From the IMG/VR virus record IMGVR_UViG_3300025009_000189, positions 1 to 43,648 of that record: 43,648 nt of DNA. The stretch is one strand, 5' to 3'. Below, piece by piece: positions 5,214-41,621 of this stretch. Within the stretch, counting starts at the first letter, position 1. Each line of letters opens with the position of its first letter. Position numbers and translations under genes: made by a program. This DNA is from a virus. The notes under the pieces were generated by a model. The model searched no databases. It was not told the DNA's origin and saw only the letters and a list, made by a program, of their open reading frames with translations.

Positions 5214-7925
5214 ATGACTGACATCGTTAGATCAACGCCAACCGATACAAGGATTACCCACGATCTTTCTTTCTTCGATGGTACTACTGAAGTTGGATTG
5301 ATACTATGTAATAGTAGGGGTATTCCGGCGCAGGGTGGAACTCCGTGGACACTACGACAATCAGGGTCGATCAGAACATCACTACAAATCAGGCAGGGTG
5401 ACGCGAATTACAGCGATTACCAACTGCCTTATACCCCATATACACAAAAGGATTGGTCAGGCGGGCGCGGCAACGAGGACTTGGAGAAGGACACGACCAG
5501 ATACTTCGATGCTAATTCTCTTGATACCAAACTTGGAGACATTATCCTGGCTGGTAAACCGACCACTGTACCGCTTGTGGCGACTGATACAGACCACGAA
5601 CCATTTGCAAACGACAGCACAATGAAACACGCTGCTACTGGCGGTGTGCGTTATGCATCTTCATATACCCCAGCAATATCGGGGCAATTCAACCAGATAG
5701 ATGTACTGGTTGCCCCTGGCGTTATTTGCACAGTTGAGATAGTCGAGGATGATACTGGCGCACCTGGAACAGATTTGGTGGCATCTGCAAGCCTTCTCAT
5801 CCCTTCCCTTGTAATATCTACGTCCACTTCAGGCGCATGTTTGGGTGGCGGACAATTGGGATGCAACGAGATGGGTCGCGGCGTGAATGTGGCTAATGCC
5901 CTGGATGTGGTACTGGTTGAAGTCCCTATTGCCGGATCATTTACAAGCGGAACAACTTATTGGATTGTGATTACTACTACAGTAGTAGGTTATAACACGC
6001 TGGTGGGTACAGATGTGTTTGACGAAGATGGCGGATGGGCTTCTTTATATGCCGACCACTCACTTTATTACAACGTCAACACGGTAATCCAGGGGAAAGT
6101 GAAATACTTTGAATATAAGGGCGCGTTGTACGCGATCACGCATCAGGATAACGGGCTGCAATCCAAACTATTTATCAATGGCTATCGCTTTACCGCTGCC
6201 AGCGGGTCAAATCAGAATGTAATAAAAGTTCCTGCAACCATCACGTTGACTGCGAATGAACTGGCGGGCTGCGTTCTGCGGATAGTGGCTGGTGTTGGTT
6301 ACACAGAAGCGGAAAACTACAAAGTTATCGCATCCAATACTGCTGGCGCTGGGGCATCCATCACATTAGAGAGTGGATTCCTGAACACACCGGATAGCAC
6401 AACTGATATTGTGATACTAGGGCATGACCTGTGGACTGAAATAGACTCAACGGGAATATCCAACGGTATTTATGATGTTTGCGTAGCCAACGACATTGTT
6501 TATTTCGGGCAGGGAGAATCTTTTAACATCAGGCGCATGAGGGAATATAACAATTCAGGCACATGGACAAGAGAATTTGCTGATGATGGGACAAACAAAG
6601 CCTCGTTCCTGGAAAGTTTACCTTCTCACGATGGTAAATTACGCATCTGGAAGTTCAATAACCCTGCTTCAGGTGCGCCAACTGCGGCATATTCCGCAGT
6701 AAAGACGTGGGGAACTAATCTCGACTTCACCACAAAGCCATCTGAACTGGCAGCGACAACCGATTACCCCATTGTTATTGGAGATCCACGCAGCAAGATC
6801 ACGAATGTGCTGGGCTATGGAGAGCCTCTGATTCCTTATGTGTTCAAAGAGGACGAATTTGGGTCGATCAATGAGGGCGTGTATGCCCGATTACCCATTG
6901 ACGAACTGGCGCAGGTGAGAAGCGAAGTGAATGGCAGAACTGCTATCCAGTTTGGCGTGTACCTGTTCTTCAATGTGCTGGATGGCTGGGAAAGATATTA
7001 CGAAAACAGGCTGGATGATGTTGGACCTAACCGGGATGAAGGATTACCGGAAGAACGCAGGGGGGTTGTGTCCTGCGTAGTGTCTTATCCTGGCGGTTTG
7101 TACCTGGGGATTGATGCTGGAGTTGACGGATATTCTTCTGTGCTGTATTGGAATCAAATTGGGTATCACGAAGAATACCGCGCCCCTTATGGTGAGCGCA
7201 TCCGGGGTCTGCACATTCAAACTATCCCAGGAAGCAATGTTGGCAGGCTGTGGATAGGACTATCTTATACAACGGTATGGATTCCTGTCACGCTGAACCC
7301 CAGGAAACAGTCTGATTACGAGTACGCCAGTTCAGGATCGCTCATTTCTTCCTGGTTCAATGGCGGATTCGGGGAGATCAATAAATTCTGGAAGTCGATA
7401 CAGTTATACGCCGAAGGATTGGCAACTGGTCAGTCGATCACGATGGAATACCAGACCGATGTAAGCGAAACATGGTACGCACTACCCACAGCATTTTCGA
7501 CTTCACCAATGCAGGAAGTATTGATGGCAACAGATTATTCGGTGTATGGAAAACGCTGGCGCTACAGGATCACGATGGCGACAACGGATGAAACAAAAAC
7601 CCCCAGGGTAAAGGCAATGACCATCCCAGCAGTAACCAGGCTGCCAGCGAATAAGAGTTGGAGCATTACGGTACTGGCTGATGATGCAATGGTGGACAGG
7701 CAGGGAACGAAACAAAGCCTATCTGCGAAACAACTGATGGATCAATTACAGACCTGGGCTGACAGCGCACTCTCTCCGCTTCCATTGATTATGAGAAGTC
7801 CGGTATCCGCGTTTGACAACAAGCGCGTGTTCCTTGAACCGCCATCCATTCAACCTATCGAAGTGGTGAATAAGAATACCAAGACATTGAAAGCGCTGGT
7901 CACATTGAGTTTGTATGAGGCGTAA
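5214..7925 (+). CDS. Large tail protein, probable nozzle/tail hub
   Basis: 903 residues, with no catalytic motif seen. It is rich in beta-strand, Trp and Gly. The segment QKDWSGGRGNEDLEKD near residues 80-95 and repeated Trp/Tyr-rich blades through the middle (for example LYLGIDAGVDGYSSVLYWN) suggest a propeller-like body. Length and position after adaptor and fibre fit the nozzle or tubular protein of short-tailed phages (inference). The next gene overlaps its end as TAATG. A 16-bp operator-like palindrome lies inside the gene at 5972-5987. Confidence 0.7.
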   Translation: MTDIVRSTPTDTRITHDLSFFDGTTEVGLILCNSRGIPAQGGTPWTLRQSGSIRTSLQIRQGDANYSDYQLPYTPYTQKDWSGGRGNEDLEKDTTRYFDANSLDTKLGDIILAGKPTTVPLVATDTDHEPFANDSTMKHAATGGVRYASSYTPAISGQFNQIDVLVAPGVICTVEIVEDDTGAPGTDLVASASLLIPSLVISTSTSGACLGGGQLGCNEMGRGVNVANALDVVLVEVPIAGSFTSGTTYWIVITTTVVGYNTLVGTDVFDEDGGWASLYADHSLYYNVNTVIQGKVKYFEYKGALYAITHQDNGLQSKLFINGYRFTAASGSNQNVIKVPATITLTANELAGCVLRIVAGVGYTEAENYKVIASNTAGAGASITLESGFLNTPDSTTDIVILGHDLWTEIDSTGISNGIYDVCVANDIVYFGQGESFNIRRMREYNNSGTWTREFADDGTNKASFLESLPSHDGKLRIWKFNNPASGAPTAAYSAVKTWGTNLDFTTKPSELAATTDYPIVIGDPRSKITNVLGYGEPLIPYVFKEDEFGSINEGVYARLPIDELAQVRSEVNGRTAIQFGVYLFFNVLDGWERYYENRLDDVGPNRDEGLPEERRGVVSCVVSYPGGLYLGIDAGVDGYSSVLYWNQIGYHEEYRAPYGERIRGLHIQTIPGSNVGRLWIGLSYTTVWIPVTLNPRKQSDYEYASSGSLISSWFNGGFGEINKFWKSIQLYAEGLATGQSITMEYQTDVSETWYALPTAFSTSPMQEVLMATDYSVYGKRWRYRITMATTDETKTPRVKAMTIPAVTRLPANKSWSITVLADDAMVDRQGTKQSLSAKQLMDQLQTWADSALSPLPLIMRSPVSAFDNKRVFLEPPSIQPIEVVNKNTKTLKALVTLSLYEA
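5972..5987. promoter_or_regulatory. Third copy of late operator palindrome, inside a gene
   Basis: TACTACTACAGTAGTA is an exact 16-bp match, in reverse orientation, to the palindrome of the late divergent promoter at 23827-23842. The only -10-like hexamer nearby (TATAAC at 5991-5996) is too close to reproduce the promoter spacing, so this may be an auxiliary regulator site or coincidence driven by Thr/Val codons. Confidence 0.35.
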
Positions 7926-23809: not shown

Positions 23810-23856
23810 ATTATACACCTTGTTAATACTACTGTAGTAGTAGATGGTGCTATAAT
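23810..23856. promoter_or_regulatory. Divergent late promoter B with palindromic operator
   Basis: Plus strand: TATAAT at 23851-23856 preceded by TGC, an extended -10. Minus strand: TATAAT at 23815-23810. Between them is the inverted repeat TACTACT-GT-AGTAGTA (23827-23842), which covers both -35 positions; neither has a TTGACA-like -35. The 32 bp ending at the plus -10 match 28 of 32 bases at 41590-41621. Start would be near 23863, at or next to the ATG of the first gene. One protein bound at the palindrome could control both directions. Confidence 0.75.
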
Positions 23857-30496: not shown

Positions 30497-33400
30497 ATGC
30501 CTGAACCAACCAACATCGAGCAGACCCCGATACCGGAGAAGCCTGCACCCTGGAAACCTACCTATGTAAATCCAGAGGTTCAGGCTAATCCGATACAGCA
30601 ACCGCCAACTTACTACATTCCCTTTGCTGGGCGTGGTCCTTCGCAACCGTTCAAAGGTCCGTCATGGGCGCGGCTACAATCCATGCTGGCTCATGGTCCT
30701 GCCAATAATGTCCCTGATCCTGCAAAGAATCTGACGTATTGGGAATACCCTGCCACTGTTGCGAGGTATCACAATCTTATCCGCACCGCTCCCCCAGGCT
30801 GGAAAGCGCCTGACTGGTTGAACGTGGACGAGATCAACTTTGCATACGATTACCTGAAATTGAGGAACGGCGATACTCCCTGGCAGGAATGGAAAGCGTT
30901 GAACCCTGCTGATCCTGGTGTTCAGGTGTTGCAGAGTATCAAGATGCCCCCATTTGAAGCGTTGTGGGATACCGAAAAGGCGAAGGCTGCAAACTCGATA
31001 ATGACCGATGAACAGATAAAAGAGCAGCAGCCTTATGGCGATTGGGATAACCTTGAAGGTTGGCAGAAGTGGGCGCTGGGAATATTCGCACCGCAAACAC
31101 CGTACCTGCAAGATCGACCTGAAATTACCAGATTGACCGCTTCAGCTGGACAAGCCCTGCTTATGGGCGTTGGTGTTGGTGCAGGTGTAAGCGCAATTGC
31201 AACCCCTATTGCTGGCATTATCGCAGGTCTGGCGGTTACGGCTGGACTGACCTATCAATCTTATACGGGCAATAAAGTTCCTATTATCAATGAACTCGTG
31301 CTGGCATCCAACGTGCTATCTGAAGGACTTGAACGCATGATCGGTGTTGGTAAACAGATCAGCGTAGATGGTCTTGAAGAAGTAATGGACGAGTTCCCCG
31401 CAGCGTGGAAAGCCAGCCAATCTACCTACGAAACTGGCAAGATGAACGCGCTCAACGCAATGGTTGGTATCAATAATGCCCTTGCTTCGGTTGGTATTGG
31501 AGAAGCGGACACAAAGGCTGGCAAGAATCAGGTATGGCGGCTGGAAACAGGGGAATCAGAACCAGTAACGCTCACCGATGGTGACACAAAAGGCGCTGCT
31601 CAATTGAGTAAGGCGCGTGAATGGATCAACAACGGTACGGCACAGACAGCATTTGACCGCGCAACCATTGACGGATCATTCGCTGGCACATATCAGGAAT
31701 ATATTTACACTCAACTGACAGAGAATTTCGGTATCACTGGCACAGTAAATGACCTGGTGGCGCAGACATTCCTTGATCCCCTCAACTTTGCCGGGTTTGG
31801 ATTGGGCAAGATCGGTGAAGCGACTACCAAATCCATAGCGACAAAGACTGCCAACCCCATTACTGCACGTGTGGCTGGCGACTTATCCCAGGCATTCAAG
31901 ACTGGACAGGGCAATGTCCTCATTGACGCATTGCCATTCGGTTTACAGCAGGTCGTGGCTGGGCTATTGAAGAAGAAAAGCTCACAAGGCTTGCTGGGTA
32001 CAATTGGAATCTATAAAGATTATGTGCGTACTGGCTTCCACCCATCACAACTGCTTGGTGCAAGCACAGATATGGTCACGAAGTTTGATAGCCTGGTAAA
32101 AGAGGGCGTTCCACAGCACAGCATTCATGTTCTGGACGACATCCTCACCTGGAAAGACCCGACTACTGGACTGGAACAGACATTCAAAGGTGAACACGGC
32201 AATGGATTCAAGATGCCAACCGTTGAGGAATTGTCATCGTTTGAAAAGTGGGTTGGCGGTATCGATCCTGAATTTGGCTACAAGGAATTACGACCTACAA
32301 CTGGCAAGACATTCCTACAGAAACTAACCCTGCTGACACCTGAAGCGCAGACATCGGCAATGCTGAACATCTTCCATCACAATATTGCTACGCTGATGGA
32401 TGCTGCCAGTGGAAACCCTGATGCAATGGTTGGATTGGTGCAGAAATTAGCAGGACAGGTTGAAGTAAAGCCTGGTGATATTGGTGAAGCGATACTCAAA
32501 TCCCCTGCTGCCAAAGCGGTTACAGGTGCAATGCAATACGCCATGAAAGAGGGCGACATTGCCTCGAATATGCTGGCATCCTGGGTCAGTGGAGCAGAAC
32601 GCCGGGGAATGATGGACAAGATCGCTGCTGCATTGGGAGAAACCCCCTCCAAGATCCTCGAACAATTGAAAGAGAACCCCGAAGTCATGGCTGGGCGGTT
32701 GAATAAGATCGCGCCTGAATTGAATACTACCCCTGAAGCGTTGACCGAAACAATGAAAGTATTCCTGGGTGATGATGCGTTGCCGTGGAACGTTGAACAA
32801 TTCCAGGCGACATTGGTAAACACCTTCGCTGACAAGATGGATGCCTACTTCGTGGATAAATACGGATTGAAGCCTGAAAGTTGGGTATTCCGTGTGTCAA
32901 ATGCACTCAAAGGTGTGCAGTCATTGGTCCTGCTGGGATTCAACCCTGCTTACTTTATGAATAACTGGGTCAATAATGTGATCACACGCGCTGTTGATGG
33001 CGTTGGTGGACACATGAGCGGTAAACAGATCAATGAGTTCTACACCAGGCTGGGTATATTCCCCAAAGATTCTGGATTGACCGGATTCGATGAGATAACC
33101 GGAGCGATCATCAGCAGGGCAACCAAAGCACAGAACGATATGCTAGGTAAGGTGCAGAAGGGCGTGTCGTTTGCCAATAAAGCAGGTGTATTCTCCCGAT
33201 TATCAGGCAAGATGGAGAAGTCAGAAGGCAACATGGCGCGTGCCATTGCCACTGGTCAATTCCTGGATAAGACAAAGAAAGCCGGCGTGGGTATCCGCAA
33301 GATGTCCCCTGTGTTGGAGCGCATACTTGATACCAATTACCCTGGGATGAAAGAAAGCGTGTATGGCGCTATCAATGCCGGCATGAACATGAAAGAGATC

Positions 33401-36400
33401 GAAGCATCCTTGTTCAATACGGTGCAGAGACCATACATCGAGAGCATTATTGACGTGATCGATCAGAAGTACACCCCGAATACTCCGGGTGTATCGAGGG
33501 AATTACTACGCAAGACTGGCATCATGGATCGCCTGAATGACAGGCTGAAGAATGTTGTTACTGCTGATGATGTGGATACCGCATTTGCAGGTGTAGAGGC
33601 TGACTTCCAGGATTGGATTCAGAAGCAGCACGTTGAAACCATAAAGAACCAGGCAGAGGATGCAAAGAACGCGGTGCAATCAGAACGAGTACCGTATGTC
33701 CTGCAAAAGACTGGCGAGATGGCTATTGAGAACGGGCAGCATTGGATCAATCAGCGCACCGATTGGGACAGGCTGTATTCACAGTTCGAGAATGGCGAAG
33801 TTACCAAGACACAGTTCAATAAACTTGCCAGTGAATTACAGGCAAAGCACAGCGCGGAAATGCAACGGTTCAACGAGTACCAGTTGCAAATAAACAAGGG
33901 CATCATTGAAGGGCTGGGGATTGAAACGGAATACTCCAGGGGATTTATCACTGGTCTTGCGGATATGAACGATGTGTGGAAAACCTTCTGGAAGGACAGC
34001 AATAAACTCAAAAGAGATTACTTCAGCCAGGGTGAAACGAAATCACTCACCTGGGAAGATGTTGAAACACGCACGATGGAACTGTACAACAAGGCAACGA
34101 AGGCAGAACAGGCGCTACAGGCTAACATGGATCAGATATTTGCCAAGATGTATGCCGATTACACAGGCTGGGACGTAGCGAAGGCTGCTAAATGGCGTGC
34201 TGCCCTGATGCAGATGCGTGAAAACATTGTAAAAGCACAGAATGATATGCGAATCAAGACCAGGGGAATGTCTGCAATCGAGAAATCCCTTGAATATTCG
34301 TCATTCAACCAGAAATATAACCGCATGATCGCTGATATGAAGCAGTTCGAGCATGATGGCGCGTTTGAACTGATGAATAAGCCTGTTCCAGAAGCCAAGA
34401 TTGACATTCCAGAGGTCTCCAACCCTGCCATTGACGCTGTACGCCAGGAAGAAGTAAGGGCGATGCTGCGAAATGAGGGCAGGACAGATGCAGAGATTGA
34501 CGAACTCGCTCCGAAGATGGGGAATGAGCCTGATATTACCCCGAAAGTAACTGATGAAGCCGCTGCCCAGGCAATGAACACAGAACCTGGCAGTCCTGCT
34601 GACCTTGCGGCCAAAGCAAGGAACGGACAGACGATACTTGACTACGCATCGAAATCAAAAGAGGTTGTGACCGCCAAGATCAAGGCAGAGGACATCATAG
34701 CCGAGGCTGACGAAGCAAAACGCAAGGCATTGATACATGAACAGGGTTGGATAGCCAAGTCTGAAATAGAAACACAGTTCCGTGAATCATTCAAGAACGC
34801 TACGGATGATGAAATCAACGCCGCAATGTTCCTGATGGATCAACACGCCGACACACTTTCAAAACAAAGAGGTATTGCACCAACCGAAGCCACAAAAGAT
34901 TTATGGTATGCAACCCACGTTGACGAAGTAAAGACTGGAATCATTGACGATGCCACCAGAGCGAAACTAATCCAAGACGGTATCACAGAACCAAAGGGCG
35001 GTACTTCATTTGCTGACGATGGCAGAGCAGTAGTAAGAGCCTTCAAATCTCACGACATAAGCACGATGGTACATGAGATCGGTCACATATTCTTACGTGA
35101 TTTATCCGATTCTCAATTGGATGTGGTTGCAAAATTAGGTGGACTGAAAGACGCTGCCGAATATCGCAGCCTTGAAAAGGCATTCAGGGATGGATTACTC
35201 ACAGAAGCCGACCCCAACTACAAGCGGTATGTGGATGCAGAAGAAAATTATGCCCGTGGTTGGGAACGATACCTGGCTGAAGGTGATGCCCCTACCCCTG
35301 CCCTGCGCTCCGTGTTCAAACAATTCACCAATTGGATGCTGAACATTTACAAGAAATTGTATAAGAAGAACGGACGTGTTGCAGGATTCGAGGGGACTGA
35401 ACTCAATGTTGACCTGAATCAACAGATCAATGGTGTTTCCCTGCGCGATATATTTGACCGGATGCTGACCGATGAACCCAATCGAGCCAAGACATTCGAG
35501 CAATTGGTTGGTGAACGCGCTGCTGAATTGAAGAACGAGGGACGCAATTTCAGGTTCAGTGACGAGCAGATTACCGCGATGGCACAGAAAGAGATCGCCG
35601 CGAATGTCCTGGATGGCTTGAATAATCCCGATGAAGCACGCGCCAGCCTGGATACAATGACCGACTTCAAGGTGCTGAAAGACGGTACAAAGGTTGATGA
35701 TACCGTTATCTATGACGCGCTGAATCACATTGAGCAGAACCCAGGCAGTAATCCGTGGACAGTGAGAGCGCCACAGGAAAGAGGACTGCGAACCAAAGCA
35801 CGTGGCATTGGAGATCCATCAAAGGAATACGAGTTCCAATTCAAGGTAGTTGACCTGGACGAGATACAAGCAAGTGATATGTGGGTGGGCGATAAACTTA
35901 ATCCGAATCCCAACTACAACCAGGCATTACAGCCACGCAACCGCGCAGAGAATCAGAGTGTTACGCAGGTTGATCTCATTGCGAAGGAATTGATCGCGGA
36001 CGAGTTATTGTTTGACGCGAAAGCCCTTGACCGTGGAGCAATGATCGTTGGACCTGACGACATGGTAGAAAGCGGTAATGGTCGCGCCTTATCCCTGAAA
36101 CGTGCTGCCGAAATGTATCCGGCGAAATGGCAAGCCTACCAGGAAGCATTGAAAGCACAGGCAGCAGACTTCGGTCTTGACCCTGCCACGTTTGCAGAGA
36201 TGAAGAATCCGGTATTGGTGCGAGAACGCCTTACGCCATTGACACCGGATGAGCGCATTGCATTTGTAAAGGATGCCAATACCCCCATTGCAGCAGCTAT
36301 GAACGCTGGTGAGATTGCCCGATCGGACGCTGTAAAGGTTACTGACCCGATGCTGCGAATACTGGATGTTCTGGACAACGAAGACATCTTCCAGGCGTTA

Positions 36401-39400
36401 TCTTCACCACGCAACGGTAAATTTGTGAACAGATTCCTTGAACAGTTATCCCCGAATGAGCGGACAGGGTTATCTACTGATGGTCAGATAAATCAGGCTG
36501 GTATTGCAAGGATAGTCAATGCCCTGTTTACCAAAGTATATCCGGGTGCTGAAGGTGAAAGAATGCTGACCACGTTCACACAAAGCCTGGATAGTAATAT
36601 CAAAACATTGCAGTCCGCAGTGATGGCAAGTTTGCCACAGATAGCAGTAGCAGAGGGAATGATAAAAGGCGGGATGCGTCCTGCTGACCTCTCTATCGCT
36701 GGGGATATTGCCAAGACCGTTGATATGATCTCGAACATCAGACACAATGGCATGAACGCGGATGAATACCTGGGGCAGATGAGTTTATTCGGTGAACATC
36801 CTGCCGATGCCATGACCCCGGTACAGAAAGCAATGCTGGTATTGTTTGATCAGAAACAACCTAAAAAGATACGTGAGTTCCTACGCAACTATGCAAGGTT
36901 GGTGGAGAATGAGCCAGCCATAGGACAGACAAGCGTAACCGATCTTGTGAGAACCAAACTGGAGGTAGTAAATGATGCCCTTACAAACGCAAGACAACCC
37001 GGACTTTTCGGAGCAGATGCCACAACAGGAAACGCCACCGATGTTACCGCGTCCTTACCGGATAACCAACTGGCGCAACCCATCCCCGGAGGAAATAGCC
37101 AGACTGGAACAATACCTGGCGGAAGTGAAGGCTTACCGGGACTGGTGGGCGCAGAAACTATTCCCACAGGCGCAACAGGAGTTGAGCCAGGTGCAACCGC
37201 CAGAATCAATCGAGGCGTAGAAGCACAGCAGGACTACAACGCAGGACAGCCAGTACCCATTGACCGGGCGCAGGATATTCAGGTGGTGCATGGTGAGGAA
37301 TTGCCAGTGTCCCCTGAAGTTCAGGCGATACTCAATAAGGCGAATGGGTATAAGTTTGCCAATAAAGAGGCTGCGAATACCTATCTTCAATGGGTGCTTG
37401 ATGGTGAGAAAGGCGCTCCCCCTGCCGGATTGAATAACAAAATCATCATTGACTTCATGGGCGACCTCGATGTATTGAGGGAGTATGCTGCACAGAAAGC
37501 AAGGGGAATTGAAATATCACAGGCTGTTCCCCAACCCGGCATCAACATTCAGAAGGTATTCCGCTTCAACCATGGCGATACCCCTGTTATTGCCAACGTG
37601 TACAAAGATGGGAAGTTGATCGCCTACCTCCCTGAAATGAAGTTGACCGATGCCAGGATAGACGACAGCAGCCGGATACTCGGACTTGACCCTCAATTCC
37701 CTGACCGCATTGTTTACGAGCAGGATGGCGTAATCAAGTCAGTGGATAGCAAGAAGCCTACTGTTGGGGATCAGGCACAGCTATTCCAGGAAGGTATCCG
37801 GGTTGAGAACGCTACCTGGACACAGGAAATGACAGACAATATGGCGCGGGCTACCATCCGTCAGGCAGAGAAAGAGGGAGATAGCGCCCTCTCTGATGCA
37901 ATCCTGTATGAGCCAAACAAGGGTAATAAGATTGCCTTACTGGATGCAGCCCACAAGATAAATCCTCAATTGGCTGAGCGAGTTGCCAAACAGGTACGCA
38001 ATCAGTTATTCCAGGATGCACAACCAGAACCACAATCCAACCCCAACGCGCCAATGGGTAGAGTTCCCCTGAATGGTACACCTGCAATCGAACCCTTCTC
38101 ACGTGTGCTGGATGAAGTGAACAGCGAACAGATCAGACCAATGATGGATGACATCAGGAGCGAATACAAACGCCAACTAGCTGACAAGTCCTTTAAGTGG
38201 GAAGGTGTGGCAGACGCGGATAAGAAGGCTGTGCGGAAATACCTGGATAATGACGTGAGAAATGACCTATCCAGTGTGAAACGTGCTGCTGTTACTTATG
38301 GTGACACGATGCGGAATAATGCCATGTTGGATTACTCCAGGCGGTACGGATTCGATCAGGTACTTAACACGATATTCCCGTATCAATTCTGGTACACGCG
38401 CACGATGCTGAATTGGGCGAAGCGCATGGTGGATAAGCCCGCCTGGTTTGCAATGTACGCCAGGATGCAGAAGGCACAACAGAGAATGGAACGTGAGGGA
38501 ATGCCAACCCGACTGAATGGCAAGGTAAGAATACCGATGGCATGGATGCCTGAATGGATGGGTGGCGGTTTATGGGTTGATCCGAGTTCAAAGATATTCC
38601 CATTTGAGCAGTTCGGACAACCCTTTGAGCAGTATGCAATGAACCGCAACCAGGTATTCAAACGCGCTGAACAGATCGTATCTGATATGAAAGAGGCTGA
38701 GTCCATTACCCCATCAGAAGCCAATGAAGCGATCAAGGCACAAAAAGGATCTGTGTGGGAGCGTGCAGTAGCCCAGGCTGAACAGGAACTGGATAAGAGC
38801 GCCAACCCTGCAAGTATGGCTGGAATGATGATGCAACCTGCGCTGTGGTGGCAGATACCGAAACAACTGGCAGCAGGAACGCCGGAGAAACTATCACCCC
38901 TGCCAATAACAAGGACTGGTCAGAGCATCCGTGACCTGGGAAGTGATACATTCCTTGAACCATTCACTAATTTTGTGGGTGATGCGCTGGCAGGTCCAGA
39001 AGAAACAATGCGTAAGGTTGCCGGATTATCTGAATTTGGTCAGTGGGGTGACTACTACCTTGACCGTACCCTGGCTGGCATGGCTTCTGATGGTGAAATT
39101 ACTGCTGAAACTGCCCGTATTGCCATGATCCAACGCAACGGTGCAGCCTTTGAGGAAGCCAAACGCAGAGTAACCAATGAGCAGACACTACGAACCCCTG
39201 GCGCATCTGGCATTATGGCGCTGAAAGAGGGTGCAAACTTCGGTCAGACGCTTGCTGCCACGTTGACAGGTATGTTTGGCGGGTCGTTATTCTCCGAAGG
39301 TGAGCTGAAGATGCGCGGATTGAAGCCCATCTATGACAATGCCTGGAAGAAGTTTGAGGCTGGGGACGATGAAGCGATAACCAAGTTCTTCGAGGACTAC

Positions 39401-40102
39401 CCGGAGTATTCCGCACGGCTGGCATTGTACGATAAACCAGAAGAAAGGTTGCATCAGTTCCTTGTGGATTCCATTTGGAAGAAATACATGGCGCTGGACG
39501 ATGCCAATAAGACAGTAGTATCAAATGTGCTGGGTGACGACTTCCGCACCACGTTCCTGAACAAAGAAACCAGGGATTATGAGGCGGTTGACGATCAAAC
39601 ACTGGCTTACTGGTCACAAACCATCAAGAAAGCCGATATGCCAGCGCAGGTAGCCGACATCCAGGGACAACAGCCCAAGTATTTCGATGATCCCATGCTG
39701 CAAAAGGTGGCAGAGTACAAGGCGGAGAAAGACAAGTTGTTTCCTGGCATTGGAAAGTTTCAATCCATGTACTTTGACATTCCGGCAGGAGCGCAGCGCA
39801 AAGTATTCCTGAACCAATACCCGAACCTGGTGAAGTATTGGAACTGGAAGGACCAGTATGCCTTAAAACACCCGGAGATCGTGCCTTACTACGATGAATT
39901 GAAGCAAAGCAGCACCGGAGATGTGGCAAGCAGCGAACTCACCTCACCTCTCATCAGGCAACTACTTGAATATGGGACTGGTGGAAACTTGAGTGCGGGG
40001 GCTAAAGCAGAGCTAGAGCGGATTCGTAAATCGGTAGCAGCGGACATGAGCGAAGCAGACTTCTTAAAAATGGCATTGAGCCTGGTTCTCAACGGTTACT
40101 AA
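30497..40102 (+). CDS. Giant polyvalent internal virion protein
   Basis: 3,201 residues, 22% of the genome. Features by residue: a Gly/Ala hydrophobic segment (about 215-255, VGVGAGVSAIATPIAGIIAG) that may insert in the host membrane; a conserved NPAYFMNNWVNN block near 815; coiled-coil regions near 1050-1350; a zinc metallopeptidase-like motif HEIGH at 1526-1530 preceded by DDGRAVV; a ddrB-like ParB-superfamily domain at about 1775-2000 with VESGNGRALSLKRA (SGNGR at 1859); a low-complexity linker at 2158-2242; and a C-terminal FPYQFWYTRTMLNWAK block near 2625. This domain style matches the polyvalent proteins described by Iyer and Aravind, which are injected with DNA. It probably forms the internal core and enters the cell. 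Confidence 0.88.
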   Translation: MPEPTNIEQTPIPEKPAPWKPTYVNPEVQANPIQQPPTYYIPFAGRGPSQPFKGPSWARLQSMLAHGPANNVPDPAKNLTYWEYPATVARYHNLIRTAPPGWKAPDWLNVDEINFAYDYLKLRNGDTPWQEWKALNPADPGVQVLQSIKMPPFEALWDTEKAKAANSIMTDEQIKEQQPYGDWDNLEGWQKWALGIFAPQTPYLQDRPEITRLTASAGQALLMGVGVGAGVSAIATPIAGIIAGLAVTAGLTYQSYTGNKVPIINELVLASNVLSEGLERMIGVGKQISVDGLEEVMDEFPAAWKASQSTYETGKMNALNAMVGINNALASVGIGEADTKAGKNQVWRLETGESEPVTLTDGDTKGAAQLSKAREWINNGTAQTAFDRATIDGSFAGTYQEYIYTQLTENFGITGTVNDLVAQTFLDPLNFAGFGLGKIGEATTKSIATKTANPITARVAGDLSQAFKTGQGNVLIDALPFGLQQVVAGLLKKKSSQGLLGTIGIYKDYVRTGFHPSQLLGASTDMVTKFDSLVKEGVPQHSIHVLDDILTWKDPTTGLEQTFKGEHGNGFKMPTVEELSSFEKWVGGIDPEFGYKELRPTTGKTFLQKLTLLTPEAQTSAMLNIFHHNIATLMDAASGNPDAMVGLVQKLAGQVEVKPGDIGEAILKSPAAKAVTGAMQYAMKEGDIASNMLASWVSGAERRGMMDKIAAALGETPSKILEQLKENPEVMAGRLNKIAPELNTTPEALTETMKVFLGDDALPWNVEQFQATLVNTFADKMDAYFVDKYGLKPESWVFRVSNALKGVQSLVLLGFNPAYFMNNWVNNVITRAVDGVGGHMSGKQINEFYTRLGIFPKDSGLTGFDEITGAIISRATKAQNDMLGKVQKGVSFANKAGVFSRLSGKMEKSEGNMARAIATGQFLDKTKKAGVGIRKMSPVLERILDTNYPGMKESVYGAINAGMNMKEIEASLFNTVQRPYIESIIDVIDQKYTPNTPGVSRELLRKTGIMDRLNDRLKNVVTADDVDTAFAGVEADFQDWIQKQHVETIKNQAEDAKNAVQSERVPYVLQKTGEMAIENGQHWINQRTDWDRLYSQFENGEVTKTQFNKLASELQAKHSAEMQRFNEYQLQINKGIIEGLGIETEYSRGFITGLADMNDVWKTFWKDSNKLKRDYFSQGETKSLTWEDVETRTMELYNKATKAEQALQANMDQIFAKMYADYTGWDVAKAAKWRAALMQMRENIVKAQNDMRIKTRGMSAIEKSLEYSSFNQKYNRMIADMKQFEHDGAFELMNKPVPEAKIDIPEVSNPAIDAVRQEEVRAMLRNEGRTDAEIDELAPKMGNEPDITPKVTDEAAAQAMNTEPGSPADLAAKARNGQTILDYASKSKEVVTAKIKAEDIIAEADEAKRKALIHEQGWIAKSEIETQFRESFKNATDDEINAAMFLMDQHADTLSKQRGIAPTEATKDLWYATHVDEVKTGIIDDATRAKLIQDGITEPKGGTSFADDGRAVVRAFKSHDISTMVHEIGHIFLRDLSDSQLDVVAKLGGLKDAAEYRSLEKAFRDGLLTEADPNYKRYVDAEENYARGWERYLAEGDAPTPALRSVFKQFTNWMLNIYKKLYKKNGRVAGFEGTELNVDLNQQINGVSLRDIFDRMLTDEPNRAKTFEQLVGERAAELKNEGRNFRFSDEQITAMAQKEIAANVLDGLNNPDEARASLDTMTDFKVLKDGTKVDDTVIYDALNHIEQNPGSNPWTVRAPQERGLRTKARGIGDPSKEYEFQFKVVDLDEIQASDMWVGDKLNPNPNYNQALQPRNRAENQSVTQVDLIAKELIADELLFDAKALDRGAMIVGPDDMVESGNGRALSLKRAAEMYPAKWQAYQEALKAQAADFGLDPATFAEMKNPVLVRERLTPLTPDERIAFVKDANTPIAAAMNAGEIARSDAVKVTDPMLRILDVLDNEDIFQALSSPRNGKFVNRFLEQLSPNERTGLSTDGQINQAGIARIVNALFTKVYPGAEGERMLTTFTQSLDSNIKTLQSAVMASLPQIAVAEGMIKGGMRPADLSIAGDIAKTVDMISNIRHNGMNADEYLGQMSLFGEHPADAMTPVQKAMLVLFDQKQPKKIREFLRNYARLVENEPAIGQTSVTDLVRTKLEVVNDALTNARQPGLFGADATTGNATDVTASLPDNQLAQPIPGGNSQTGTIPGGSEGLPGLVGAETIPTGATGVEPGATARINRGVEAQQDYNAGQPVPIDRAQDIQVVHGEELPVSPEVQAILNKANGYKFANKEAANTYLQWVLDGEKGAPPAGLNNKIIIDFMGDLDVLREYAAQKARGIEISQAVPQPGINIQKVFRFNHGDTPVIANVYKDGKLIAYLPEMKLTDARIDDSSRILGLDPQFPDRIVYEQDGVIKSVDSKKPTVGDQAQLFQEGIRVENATWTQEMTDNMARATIRQAEKEGDSALSDAILYEPNKGNKIALLDAAHKINPQLAERVAKQVRNQLFQDAQPEPQSNPNAPMGRVPLNGTPAIEPFSRVLDEVNSEQIRPMMDDIRSEYKRQLADKSFKWEGVADADKKAVRKYLDNDVRNDLSSVKRAAVTYGDTMRNNAMLDYSRRYGFDQVLNTIFPYQFWYTRTMLNWAKRMVDKPAWFAMYARMQKAQQRMEREGMPTRLNGKVRIPMAWMPEWMGGGLWVDPSSKIFPFEQFGQPFEQYAMNRNQVFKRAEQIVSDMKEAESITPSEANEAIKAQKGSVWERAVAQAEQELDKSANPASMAGMMMQPALWWQIPKQLAAGTPEKLSPLPITRTGQSIRDLGSDTFLEPFTNFVGDALAGPEETMRKVAGLSEFGQWGDYYLDRTLAGMASDGEITAETARIAMIQRNGAAFEEAKRRVTNEQTLRTPGASGIMALKEGANFGQTLAATLTGMFGGSLFSEGELKMRGLKPIYDNAWKKFEAGDDEAITKFFEDYPEYSARLALYDKPEERLHQFLVDSIWKKYMALDDANKTVVSNVLGDDFRTTFLNKETRDYEAVDDQTLAYWSQTIKKADMPAQVADIQGQQPKYFDDPMLQKVAEYKAEKDKLFPGIGKFQSMYFDIPAGAQRKVFLNQYPNLVKYWNWKDQYALKHPEIVPYYDELKQSSTGDVASSELTSPLIRQLLEYGTGGNLSAGAKAELERIRKSVAADMSEADFLKMALSLVLNGY
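36972..37220 (+). CDS. Small gene overprinted inside the giant gene (+1 frame)
   Basis: 82 residues in the frame +1 relative to the giant protein. GGAGGT lies 5 nt before the tandem ATG at 36972/36975, a perfect Shine-Dalgarno. The product looks like a real protein: Pro/Gln-rich N-terminus, then WRNPSPEEIARLEQYLAEVK and AYRDWWAQKLFPQAQQEL, a charged amphipathic helix. In the same stretch the giant protein is a Gly/Thr/Ala/Pro-rich linker, as expected where one frame is constrained by another. Function unknown. The alternative is chance, which the ribosome-binding site argues against. Confidence 0.6.
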   Translation: MMPLQTQDNPDFSEQMPQQETPPMLPRPYRITNWRNPSPEEIARLEQYLAEVKAYRDWWAQKLFPQAQQELSQVQPPESIEA

Positions 40103-40225: not shown

Positions 40226-40240
40226 ATCTGCCCTTTGTCT
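40207..40240 (+). terminator. Strong hairpin at the end of the packaging/giant operon
   Basis: AGACAAAGGGCAGA (40207-40220) pairs with TCTGCCCTTTGTCT (40227-40240), a perfect 14-bp stem with a 6-nt loop, followed by TTGACTC. It spans the stop of the 36-residue gene. The T-rich end is short, but stem strength and position fit an intrinsic terminator. Confidence 0.7.
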
Positions 40241-40247
40241 TTGACTC

Positions 40248-40336
40248 TCCATACCTTACAACGCCTTACCATACCGAGCCTAGCCAGACCGTACCGGACA
40301 GGAACTCACCTTATCTCACCGCGGCGGACCGCAACC
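40248..40336. repeat. Degenerate pentanucleotide tract, left part
   Basis: Read in steps of five on the plus strand, the sequence is mostly CCNNN words such as CCATA, CCTTA, CCGAG, CCTAG and CCGTA, with CC recurring every 5 bp and drifting by indels. The same pattern resumes after the HNH gene at 40605. It has no ribosome-binding sites or convincing genes. Confidence 0.6.
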
Positions 40337-40609
40337 TCATAATTTATCACGGGCATCCTTCATAAAGGGATGCCTGTTTTTATGACACTTTTTGCATAAT
40401 GTTTTCAGATTTGACGGATGATTAGTACCACCCTGGTTCAACTCGAATACATGATGTATATTACACTTGTTCAGTTCAACAGACGCACCGCAATACTGAC
40501 ATAAACCCTTGTCGCGTTCATACACGAATTGACGAATGATACGCCATTGATTTTCGGGCATTCTCTTGAACCATTGATACTGTTTACCGCCTATGCAAAA
40601 AGTAACCAT
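40337..40609 (-). CDS. HNH endonuclease
   Basis: 90 residues. CAGGT lies just before the ATG at 40609; an internal ATG (residue 17) is possible but the segment FCIGGKQYQWFKR before it looks conserved in style. The HNH core has CQYC at 37-40, IHHVFELNQGG with H52-H53, NLKTLC, and CKKCH at 72-76. It is a compact zinc-HNH enzyme of homing or packaging type. The gene splits the pentanucleotide tract in two, and its 3' end contains the plus-strand terminator at 40351-40381. Confidence 0.88.
   Translation of the reverse strand: MVTFCIGGKQYQWFKRMPENQWRIIRQFVYERDKGLCQYCGASVELNKCNIHHVFELNQGGTNHPSNLKTLCKKCHKNRHPFMKDARDKL
40351..40383 (+). terminator. Intrinsic terminator, plus strand
   Basis: GGCATCC (40352-40358) pairs with GGATGCC (40368-40374) around a 9-nt loop, followed by TGTTTTTAT. 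A backup terminator for the packaging/giant operon. It lies inside the 3' coding end of the opposite-strand HNH gene, in codons for its last residues. Confidence 0.7.
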
Positions 40610-40862
40610 ACCTGACCCTGCCTCGCCCCACCAGAACTAACGCTGCCTCGCAGTACCGTACAGTTCCACAACCACAAAGCAATTCCCATACCTCACCTTG
40701 CCAGACCGTTCCCGACCATGCAGCACCTTGCCGCGCCATGCATCGCCGCACAACGGCTCGAACGACCTCAACCACAAATACAAACTCTATGTCATACCTC
40801 GCCAAACCTCGCCATTCCAGACAGAACCATACACGACCGCGTCTCGCCTCTCCTAGTCTCAA
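40605..40862. repeat. Degenerate pentanucleotide tract, right part
   Basis: About 260 bp without a gene. Words such as CCATA, CCTGA, CCTCG, CCAGA, CCGTA, CCTCA and CCTTG recur on a 5-bp step over most of its length, interrupted by short indels and ACCACAAA-like breaks. An open frame on the minus strand (40584-40868) merely translates the repeat into Arg/Gly/Val/Trp-rich sequence and lacks coding features. Confidence 0.6.
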
Positions 40863-40869
40863 CCTCAAA

Positions 40870-41445
40870 TTATTTCACCAATTCAAACTTGGTGACAATG
40901 AACCTACCAAACTTCGGGCGATAATCGCCAATTCCAACTGCCTTACCAGCTTGTAAAAGTACATCGCTGACGATCTCAAAAGGAACTTCATCATCCAAAA
41001 CATTGATGGCAAATGACAATTCCCACCCTGCTTTGAATGTTGGGCGTAAACGAACCACGCGGGAACGGTTGATGATTACCGGGCGCATATCCAGGTAAAG
41101 AACCCTATCTGCATCACAATCAAGTTCTTCTGGAACTGGCACATTATGGGGAATGTCGATTGGGTCAATAACGATGTTAGCCTGGAAAAGGTCTTTATAG
41201 GTTTTGCCCCTTTTTCCTGTTACCTTGAAGCCGGTTGCACCTTTGACCATTGCACCTTCAATGTGGCACGAAGGCTGAACGATCATCCCATCTTTGACAT
41301 AAAGATAATCGTGCCATTCCTGGGAATAATCAATCGCTCCGGTTGATTTCTTCCCGCCCTTTGATAGACTTCCAAAGTCAGGCATTGGGAAACGATGTTG
41401 CATGAGTGGTGCTATTCCTTTGATAGTGCAATTTATCTGATACAT
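40870..41445 (-). CDS. RAMP/Cas7-like phage protein
   Basis: 191 residues; AGGAAAGGAATCAAG precedes the ATG. The N-terminal strand YQINCTIKGIAPLMQHRF has the hxhxhxGxxPLhhH form of the first strand of RAMP/Cas7-type ferredoxin folds. The C-terminal GKAVGIGDYRPKFGRF resembles their glycine-rich loop. The middle contains IVQPSCHIEGAMVKGATGFK, also reminiscent of a Cas7 core. No CRISPR array or other cas gene is present. It is transcribed away from the capsid operon from a shared promoter. A single-strand nucleic-acid-binding role is the best guess; the fold assignment needs structure prediction. Confidence 0.55.
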   Translation of the reverse strand: MYQINCTIKGIAPLMQHRFPMPDFGSLSKGGKKSTGAIDYSQEWHDYLYVKDGMIVQPSCHIEGAMVKGATGFKVTGKRGKTYKDLFQANIVIDPIDIPHNVPVPEELDCDADRVLYLDMRPVIINRSRVVRLRPTFKAGWELSFAINVLDDEVPFEIVSDVLLQAGKAVGIGDYRPKFGRFIVTKFELVK

Positions 41446-41466
41446 CTTGATTCCTTTCCTACCTTA

Positions 41467-41572
41467 CAAAAGAGCCGTTGTCCTGCATTCGCCTTATCTG
41501 TCACAACAAGGAAGTTTATGCAAAACAACGGCTCTTTTGAGGCGAAATAAAAACTTCCCTTCTGTTGTGACA
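41467..41572. other. Interleaved inverted repeats in the leader of the RAMP-like gene
   Basis: Three segments are each followed by their reverse complement in the same order, so the pairs cross. CAAAAGAGCCGTTGT (41467-41481) pairs with 41525-41539, 15 of 15. TTCGCCT (41488-41494) pairs with AGGCGAA (41540-41546). TGTCACAACA...GGAAGTTT (41499-41517) pairs with 41551-41572 (10 plus 8 bp). The pairs cannot nest, so the RNA must choose between helices or form a pseudoknot. The first pair, read on the minus strand, ends in CTCTTTTG and resembles a terminator. Confidence 0.7.
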
Positions 41573-41577
41573 ATACT

Positions 41578-41621
41578 ATTATAACATACAATACTACTGT
41601 TGTAGTAGAGCGTGGTATAAT
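41578..41621. promoter_or_regulatory. Divergent late promoter A with operator
   Basis: Plus strand: TATAAT at 41616-41621 preceded by TGG (extended -10), toward the scaffold and capsid genes. Minus strand: TATAAT at 41583-41578 preceded by TGT (also extended -10), toward the RAMP-like gene. Between them lies TACTACTGTTGTAGTAG, a variant of the operator in promoter B; 28 of the 32 bp at 41590-41621 are identical to 23825-23856. Neither direction has a TTGACA-like -35, so an activator at the motif, or reliance on the extended -10, is likely. Confidence 0.75.

Follow-up and report, generated by a model that had tools for sequence, protein, structure and literature searches.

The vipr gene of the phage DNA analysed here (the window, i.e. 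the whole stretch of 43,648 nt, IMG/VR record IMGVR_UViG_3300025009_000189) is preceded on the minus strand, at 41572-41466, by a leader in which six segments follow one another in the order c1-b1-a1-c2-b2-a2, each arm being complementary to its namesake. Comparison of the leader sequences among five phages makes it nearly certain that this is a real RNA structure of the gene-sense strand. Our main reading, to which we assign a probability of roughly 0.55, is that this 5' leader of a phage VIPR operon switches between two folded states and acts in cis; we infer that it controls vipr, as well as the direction and the trigger of that control.

On the plus strand the arms at the vipr leader stand in the order A (41467-41488), B (41488-41494), C (41499-41517), A' (41518-41539), B' (41540-41546) and C' (41551-41572). 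Because this order is repeated and not mirrored, all three helices, A, B and C, cross one another. Along the minus strand, the outer arm of c1 (TGTCACAACA, 41563-41572) pairs in 10 of 10 positions with the outer arm of c2 (TGTTGTGACA, 41499-41508), with compensatory changes in all relatives, and the inner arm of c1 (GGAAGTTT, 41551-41558), separated from the outer one by gaag, pairs in 8 of 8 positions with the inner arm of c2 (AAACTTCC, 41510-41517), after which a single t precedes the outer arm. The linker L1 (41547-41550), which is U-rich in all five leaders, connects c1 to b1 (TTCGCCT, 41540-41546), whose seven bases all pair with b2 (AGGCGAA, 41488-41494). The a1 arm (CAAAAGAGCCGTTGTTTTGCAT, 41518-41539) abuts c2 and forms 22 pairs, including two G-U, with a2 (ATGCAGGACAACGGCTCTTTTG, 41467-41488), which has one base in common with b2 and runs into a U-rich tract; the Shine-Dalgarno region of vipr (AAGGTAGGAAAGGAA) lies at 41451-41465. 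A crossing-triple detector gave this leader a score of 93.0. When the entire window was dinucleotide-shuffled 12 times, the best scores were 59-71.5; when only the 250 nt of the upstream region were shuffled, 200 times, the highest score was 66.5. The earlier note had described three segments and their complements in the same order, with crossing helices, and its coordinates proved right to the base.

The gene behind the leader, called "RAMP-like" in that note, is vipr according to its modelled Csm3/Cas7 fold and its sequence context of GGYNN guide arrays and an HNH gene. It encodes 191 aa (40870-41445, minus strand), matches PHROG 4652 (E 9e-17) and has the RAMP fold, as expected of Vipr, a small RAMP with an RRM core and a G-loop; the AlphaFold2 model of Vipr has a pLDDT of 85.6, its top Foldseek matches in the PDB are Csm3/Cas7-type subunits (E down to 3e-6), and the protein has a conserved GIGDYRPKFGRF near the C-terminus. 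VIPR, the proposed ancestor of class 1 CRISPR effectors, comprises Vipr and vrRNA and was described in a 2026 preprint (PMC13142463, bioRxiv 10.64898/2026.04.26.720920), whose main text presents vrRNAs as guiding Vipr to double-stranded DNA and deals with pseudoknotted vrRNA tails, staggered arrays and arrays interspersed with hammerheads. Expression of vrRNAs and 1-nt-skip DNA targeting belong to the characters of VIPR. Like the systems described there, the window possesses a phage RAMP gene, adjoining degenerate GGYNN arrays and a probable accessory gene in the same operon. On the minus strand, vipr is followed by a first vrRNA array of degenerate GGYNN pentads (40797-40856), with an architecture as in PMC13142463, a second one (40676-40755), the gene for an HNH protein (40337-40609, PHROGs HNH, E 2e-17), a further array (40239-40323), and an inverted repeat, AGACAAAGGGCAGA...TCTGCCCTTTGTCT (40240-40207), which is probably the operon terminator. 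Tandem YNNGG/GGYNN arrays adjoin vipr in nearly all loci of our first scans; within the leader itself (41466-41572) no pentad array was found.

Scanning IMG/VR with the Vipr protein and alignments, plus one genome-contig scan, yielded about 80 loci, several of them repeats of each other. The leader is present also in four independent relatives, L004, L005, L007 and L057/L058, in which Vipr is 75%, 69%, 62% and 58% identical, respectively, to the protein of the window, so that the comparison comprises only five independent leaders. Among these the letters of the arms are almost wholly different, while their arrangement and place are unchanged. A tight-geometry scan of both strands of about 1.2 Mb of vipr loci placed the five carriers at ranks 1-4 and 6, and in shuffle tests carried out separately for L004, L005, L007 and L057, the real score was reached in 0 of 200 cases each.

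The helices were compared arm by arm, the MAFFT alignment of the leaders being out of register. When all 5' arms of the five phages were set against all 3' arms, the identity pairing was the unique best of 120 permutations, and this holds alike for outer C, inner C, B and A. Double changes with respect to the window that keep the pairing affect 5-8 of 10 pairs in outer C and 7-11 in A. Helix B has mostly identical letters in three phages and two double changes in L007, and is weak in L057, with 4 bp; inner C comprises 8 bp in all five leaders (with one mismatch in L004) and is bulged on its 5' side. Since arm boundaries were set by hand, pairing within each single phage is favoured, a bias that affects neither the permutation test, nor the G-U count, nor the automatic detector. 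The pairing cells of the five leaders contain 210 Watson-Crick pairs, 14 G-U, 0 A-C and 2 others, and the presence of G-U together with the absence of A-C implies that selection acts on the gene-sense RNA. The covariation that the earlier note had suggested looking for in relatives is therefore present: the arms change with compensation in all three helices, and uncompensated change was not found in the five leaders.

The distribution of the leader is patchy. Near relatives without it include L006, L056, L078, L079, L080 and L042, and since carriers and non-carriers are interspersed within one vipr clade, the sequences suggest that gain or loss probably occurred repeatedly. L008 is a doubtful candidate for a sixth carrier: 2 of 200 shuffles equal its score, its third arm lies inside a pentad array, it has no clear promoter, and the non-carrier L079 scores equally well. 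A DNA-pattern search for further leaders returned only the carriers already known, and a DNA similarity search in phage records gave a single chance match (E 0.4). In Rfam no match was found at gathering scores, and the loose threshold added only sub-threshold matches to miRNA-like hairpins, so that no known RNA family is a credible assignment at either setting; a self-cleaving ribozyme was discarded on inspection, as the five leaders have no conserved unpaired core.

The placement of the leader is constant as well. In the window, a -10 box TATAAT (41578-41583, minus strand), extended as TGTTATAAT, stands directly upstream, and in all five leaders the -10 box ends 4-5 nt before c1, from which it follows that the RNA should begin at c1. 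The -10 sequences are TATAAT/GATAAT in L004, L007 and L057, and TAGACT in L005; TTGACA is found 17 nt further upstream in L005, L007 and L057, while the window has the extended -10. The -10 boxes are of the sigma70 type, and the predicted start in the window coincides with c1 or lies a few bases from it. At the other end, a2 terminates 22-31 nt before the vipr start codon in all five phages. The attribution of the element in the earlier note to a minus-strand RNA belonging to the RAMP-like gene is supported by all these features, i.e. the compensatory changes, the occurrence of G-U without A-C, the abutting promoter and the constant distance of 22-31 nt. The same features bear on a reading in which the element is an independent trans-acting small RNA, ending at the U-rich tract after A, with vipr merely downstream; it has its own promoter, a length of about 107 nt and the U-rich tract in its favour, but in view of the fixed distance from vipr, the lack of a conserved unpaired seed and the weakness of the U tract, we regard it as very improbable.

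The lengths of the linkers restrict which helices can coexist. C measures 18-26 bp in the five leaders, and A 18-22 bp in four and 13 bp in L057. In the window, L004, L005 and L007, the b1-a1 and b2-a2 linkers are 0-3 nt long, too short to span the 18-22 bp of helix A; hence B and a complete A are mutually exclusive in four of the five leaders, and a fold with all three helices complete at once is ruled out there. The c2-a2 linker, which has to run alongside C, counts 8 nt in L007, where C has 22 bp, and 9 nt in L057, where C has 26 bp, too short for a complete C and a complete A to coexist in these two; in the window, L004 and L005 it has 10-13 nt for a C of 18 bp, which is marginal. From these lengths (in the argument headed "WHY ALTERNATIVES") it follows that the helices alternate or form only partly together, and a simple pseudoknot with all three helices formed simultaneously becomes unlikely.

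The same geometry bears on the alternative that survives best, namely a constitutive H-type pseudoknot in which C and A are coaxially stacked, b1 and b2 lie in the two crossing loops, and no switching takes place; placed at the start of the vipr mRNA, it would serve as a static road-block, a stability cap or a site for protein binding. The spacing between a1 and c2, 0-1 nt in the window, L004, L005 and L007 (6 nt in L057), is as expected of H-type pseudoknots, and loops of 12-15 and 10-13 nt in the window, L004 and L005 could just span the helices. However, in L007 and L057 a loop of 8-9 nt faces a C helix of 22-26 bp, and B is conserved too, yet cannot form in such a fold. We therefore consider the coaxial fold unlikely, although it stands ahead of all other alternatives to the two-state switch.

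Growing transcripts were folded by nested energy models. The predicted fold of the nascent RNA is C at about 76-100 nt (about 116-132 nt in L057), the last lengths with C being about 92-100 nt (132 nt in L057), while the full leaders are predicted in all five cases as A, with an extension in which L1 and b1 pair with the Shine-Dalgarno region. Compared with shuffles, this extension is matched in only 0.2% for L007 and 0% for L057, but in 68% for the window, 19% for L004 and 13% for L005, where it is no better than expected from composition. Forcing C raises the predicted openness of the Shine-Dalgarno region from 0.27 to 0.30, 0.15 to 0.29, 0.23 to 0.41, 0.35 to 0.38 and 0.24 to 0.49 in the five leaders, the window and L007 gaining little. 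When each helix is taken alone, C is stronger than A in L007 (-35.4 vs -32.2 kcal/mol) and in L057 (-36.2 vs -23.8 kcal/mol). The nested refolding path from C to A meets a barrier of 26-42 kcal/mol, which argues that C, once formed, is a trap, and that the order of transcription or a bound factor decides; with such a modelled barrier, a self-acting timer would be too slow unless pseudoknotted paths or a factor help. Taken together, linker geometry and modelled folds indicate that the leader likely shows two-state behaviour. The idea of an RNA choosing between two folds, put forward in the earlier note, thus gains indirect support from the linker exclusion and from the predicted change of fold with growth, whereas the pairing of the Shine-Dalgarno region exceeds chance only in L007 and L057. 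A second suggestion made there, that the final pair resembles a terminator on the minus strand, is correct inasmuch as the GC-rich helix A is followed by a U-rich tract, CUCUUUUGU, but the resemblance is weak: the tracts after A are interrupted, that of the window is short, and a consensus terminator scan limited to loops of at most 8 nt did not call helix A, whose loop is longer.

In the mechanism that we propose for the switch, c2 would emerge first during transcription and lock c1 into C, whereupon b2 would pair with b1 inside the loop of C; the resulting C+B pseudoknot would leave the Shine-Dalgarno region free (the early, ON state). Synthesis of a2 would then make A possible, which is part of the more stable fold according to the nested energy models. 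Formation of A would free c1, would put a GC-rich stem in front of the U-rich tract and so could cause attenuation, and would make L1 and b1 available for pairing with the Shine-Dalgarno region (the late, OFF state). Kinetic competition, or a factor binding c1 or C (Vipr itself being a candidate), would determine how much Vipr and guide RNA is obtained from the common transcript. That C+B is permissive and A repressive has, in our estimate, somewhat less than even odds.

A related alternative makes Vipr the principal agent: by analogy with the T4 gp32 protein acting at its own leader pseudoknot, Vipr might bind the GGYNN-like motif of c1 and/or the G-rich Shine-Dalgarno region, change the fold and stop its own synthesis. 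The inner arm of c1 reads GGYNN-UU in L004, L005, L007 and L057 and GGANN in the window, and the preprint reports that Vipr co-purifies with GGYNN RNA (PMC13142463). On the other hand, the leader has no array-like run of pentads, the motif in c1 is short and was noticed post hoc, and the vrRNAs of the window match the leader and promoter at chance level; autogenous control of this kind seems to us slightly less probable than even the coaxial pseudoknot. Self-targeting of the leader or promoter by VIPR was considered separately and rejected because the decoded vrRNAs score at shuffle level, and no decoded vrRNA had a match inside the window clearly above chance. We likewise rejected the idea that the leader pairs with the arrays that follow vipr: the window contains a 10-nt identity, GAGCCGTTGT, which we treat as chance because it is absent from the other four phages. 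Cleavage by RNase III offers a further explanation, in which the long helices are substrates of a processing or stability element and the transcript is trimmed upstream of vipr. RNase III sites are well known in phage leaders, and the lengths of C and A given above correspond to about two turns; a single hairpin would suffice, however, leaving three crossing helices in a constant order unexplained, which makes this explanation improbable.

Among known systems, the proposed switch resembles the metastable co-transcriptional leaders of the MS2 maturation gene and of the plasmid R1 hok mRNA, where a long-range helix takes the place of an early hairpin and closes the start site; the vipr leader would likewise exchange an early hairpin for a long-range helix at the start site. 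In MS2 and hok, however, the alternative helices have sequence in common, whereas C and A of the vipr leader have none, and their exclusion stems from topology and linker length instead of overlap. The riboswitches SAM-II and preQ1 are H-type pseudoknots with crossing helices and a U-rich loop near the ribosome-binding site, all of which the vipr leader has as well; unlike them, it lacks a conserved ligand core and has no Rfam match at curated thresholds. The T4 gene 32 leader contains a pseudoknot to which the single-strand-binding protein encoded by that gene binds (e.g. PMC535899), and here too a pseudoknotted leader stands upstream of a gene for a nucleic-acid-coating protein, but the helices of the vipr leader are far longer, three of them cross, and binding by Vipr is only putative. 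RNA knots are built from mutually crossing helices of more than one turn (PMC5381007, PMC11218946); such helices are present in the vipr leader, whose linkers are too short for three complete helices at once.

Judged by its sequences, the leader is a new leader-RNA family and not a new class of regulation. It is so far undescribed as far as the main text of the VIPR preprint is concerned, which mentions no leader, untranslated region, autoregulation or riboswitch, in contrast to the structured vipr leader found here. How phages regulate VIPR is a subject absent from that text, and the leader presents a concrete candidate control element at the head of the operon. If the switch is real, its design is unusual, with exclusion by topology between helices that have no sequence in common. 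More tentative still than the assignment of the two states is the proposition that leader RNAs of this type form a new class, with two long helices that have no common sequence and exclude each other purely by topology, and are used by phages to set the dose of a CRISPR-ancestral system, perhaps read by Vipr. Topological exclusion is not representable in standard searches by nested folding or covariance models, and similar leaders may be widely missed.

The operons behind the leader and their relatives exhibit several further features. A small HNH gene stands behind the arrays in the window, L004-L007, L056, L057, L078, L080 and L042, with an HNH motif 167-551 nt past the vipr stop codon in 10 of 11 members of the clade; HNH is not mentioned in the main text of the preprint (PMC13142463), and the sequences suggest that the gene is probably a VIPR accessory gene and a candidate nuclease. 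A UUUGUGG motif precedes most arrays in the window's clade (L004, L005, L007, L057) and, by its position in the sequence, apparently forms a 5' handle, as opposed to the 3' tail of the preprint. In phages of the Felixounavirus type, L041 (3514-3901) and L040 (3633-3898), we found units of a hairpin, a GGTNN array and an H-type pseudoknot upstream of vipr; these units, whose pseudoknot consists of GTAG..CTAC and a variable second helix crossing it, resemble the SUSP1-type vrRNA tail. In L012-L022 the arrays, each ending in TGCGG...CCGCA, form long series that continue unbroken for up to about 700 bases, and L039 (5728-6674) has the array consensus AGCNN instead of GGYNN.

In the window, a single ORF of 3201 aa (30497-40102, plus strand) lies directly upstream and is convergent with the vipr operon. 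A palindrome, TACTACTGNNGTAGTA, combined with an extended -10 box, occurs on the plus strand at 41592-41621, before head genes, and again at 23827-23856, before the terminase region; both copies match the shared 30-nt pattern with 0 mismatches, with 0 such copies expected. The palindrome at 41592 has its centre 16.5 nt away from each of two -10 boxes, those of the vipr (minus) and head (plus) promoters, and from its sequence this palindrome is a putative symmetric operator shared by the two divergent promoters. A further exact palindrome, TACTACNNNNGTAGTA, lies within a long ORF at 5972-5987.
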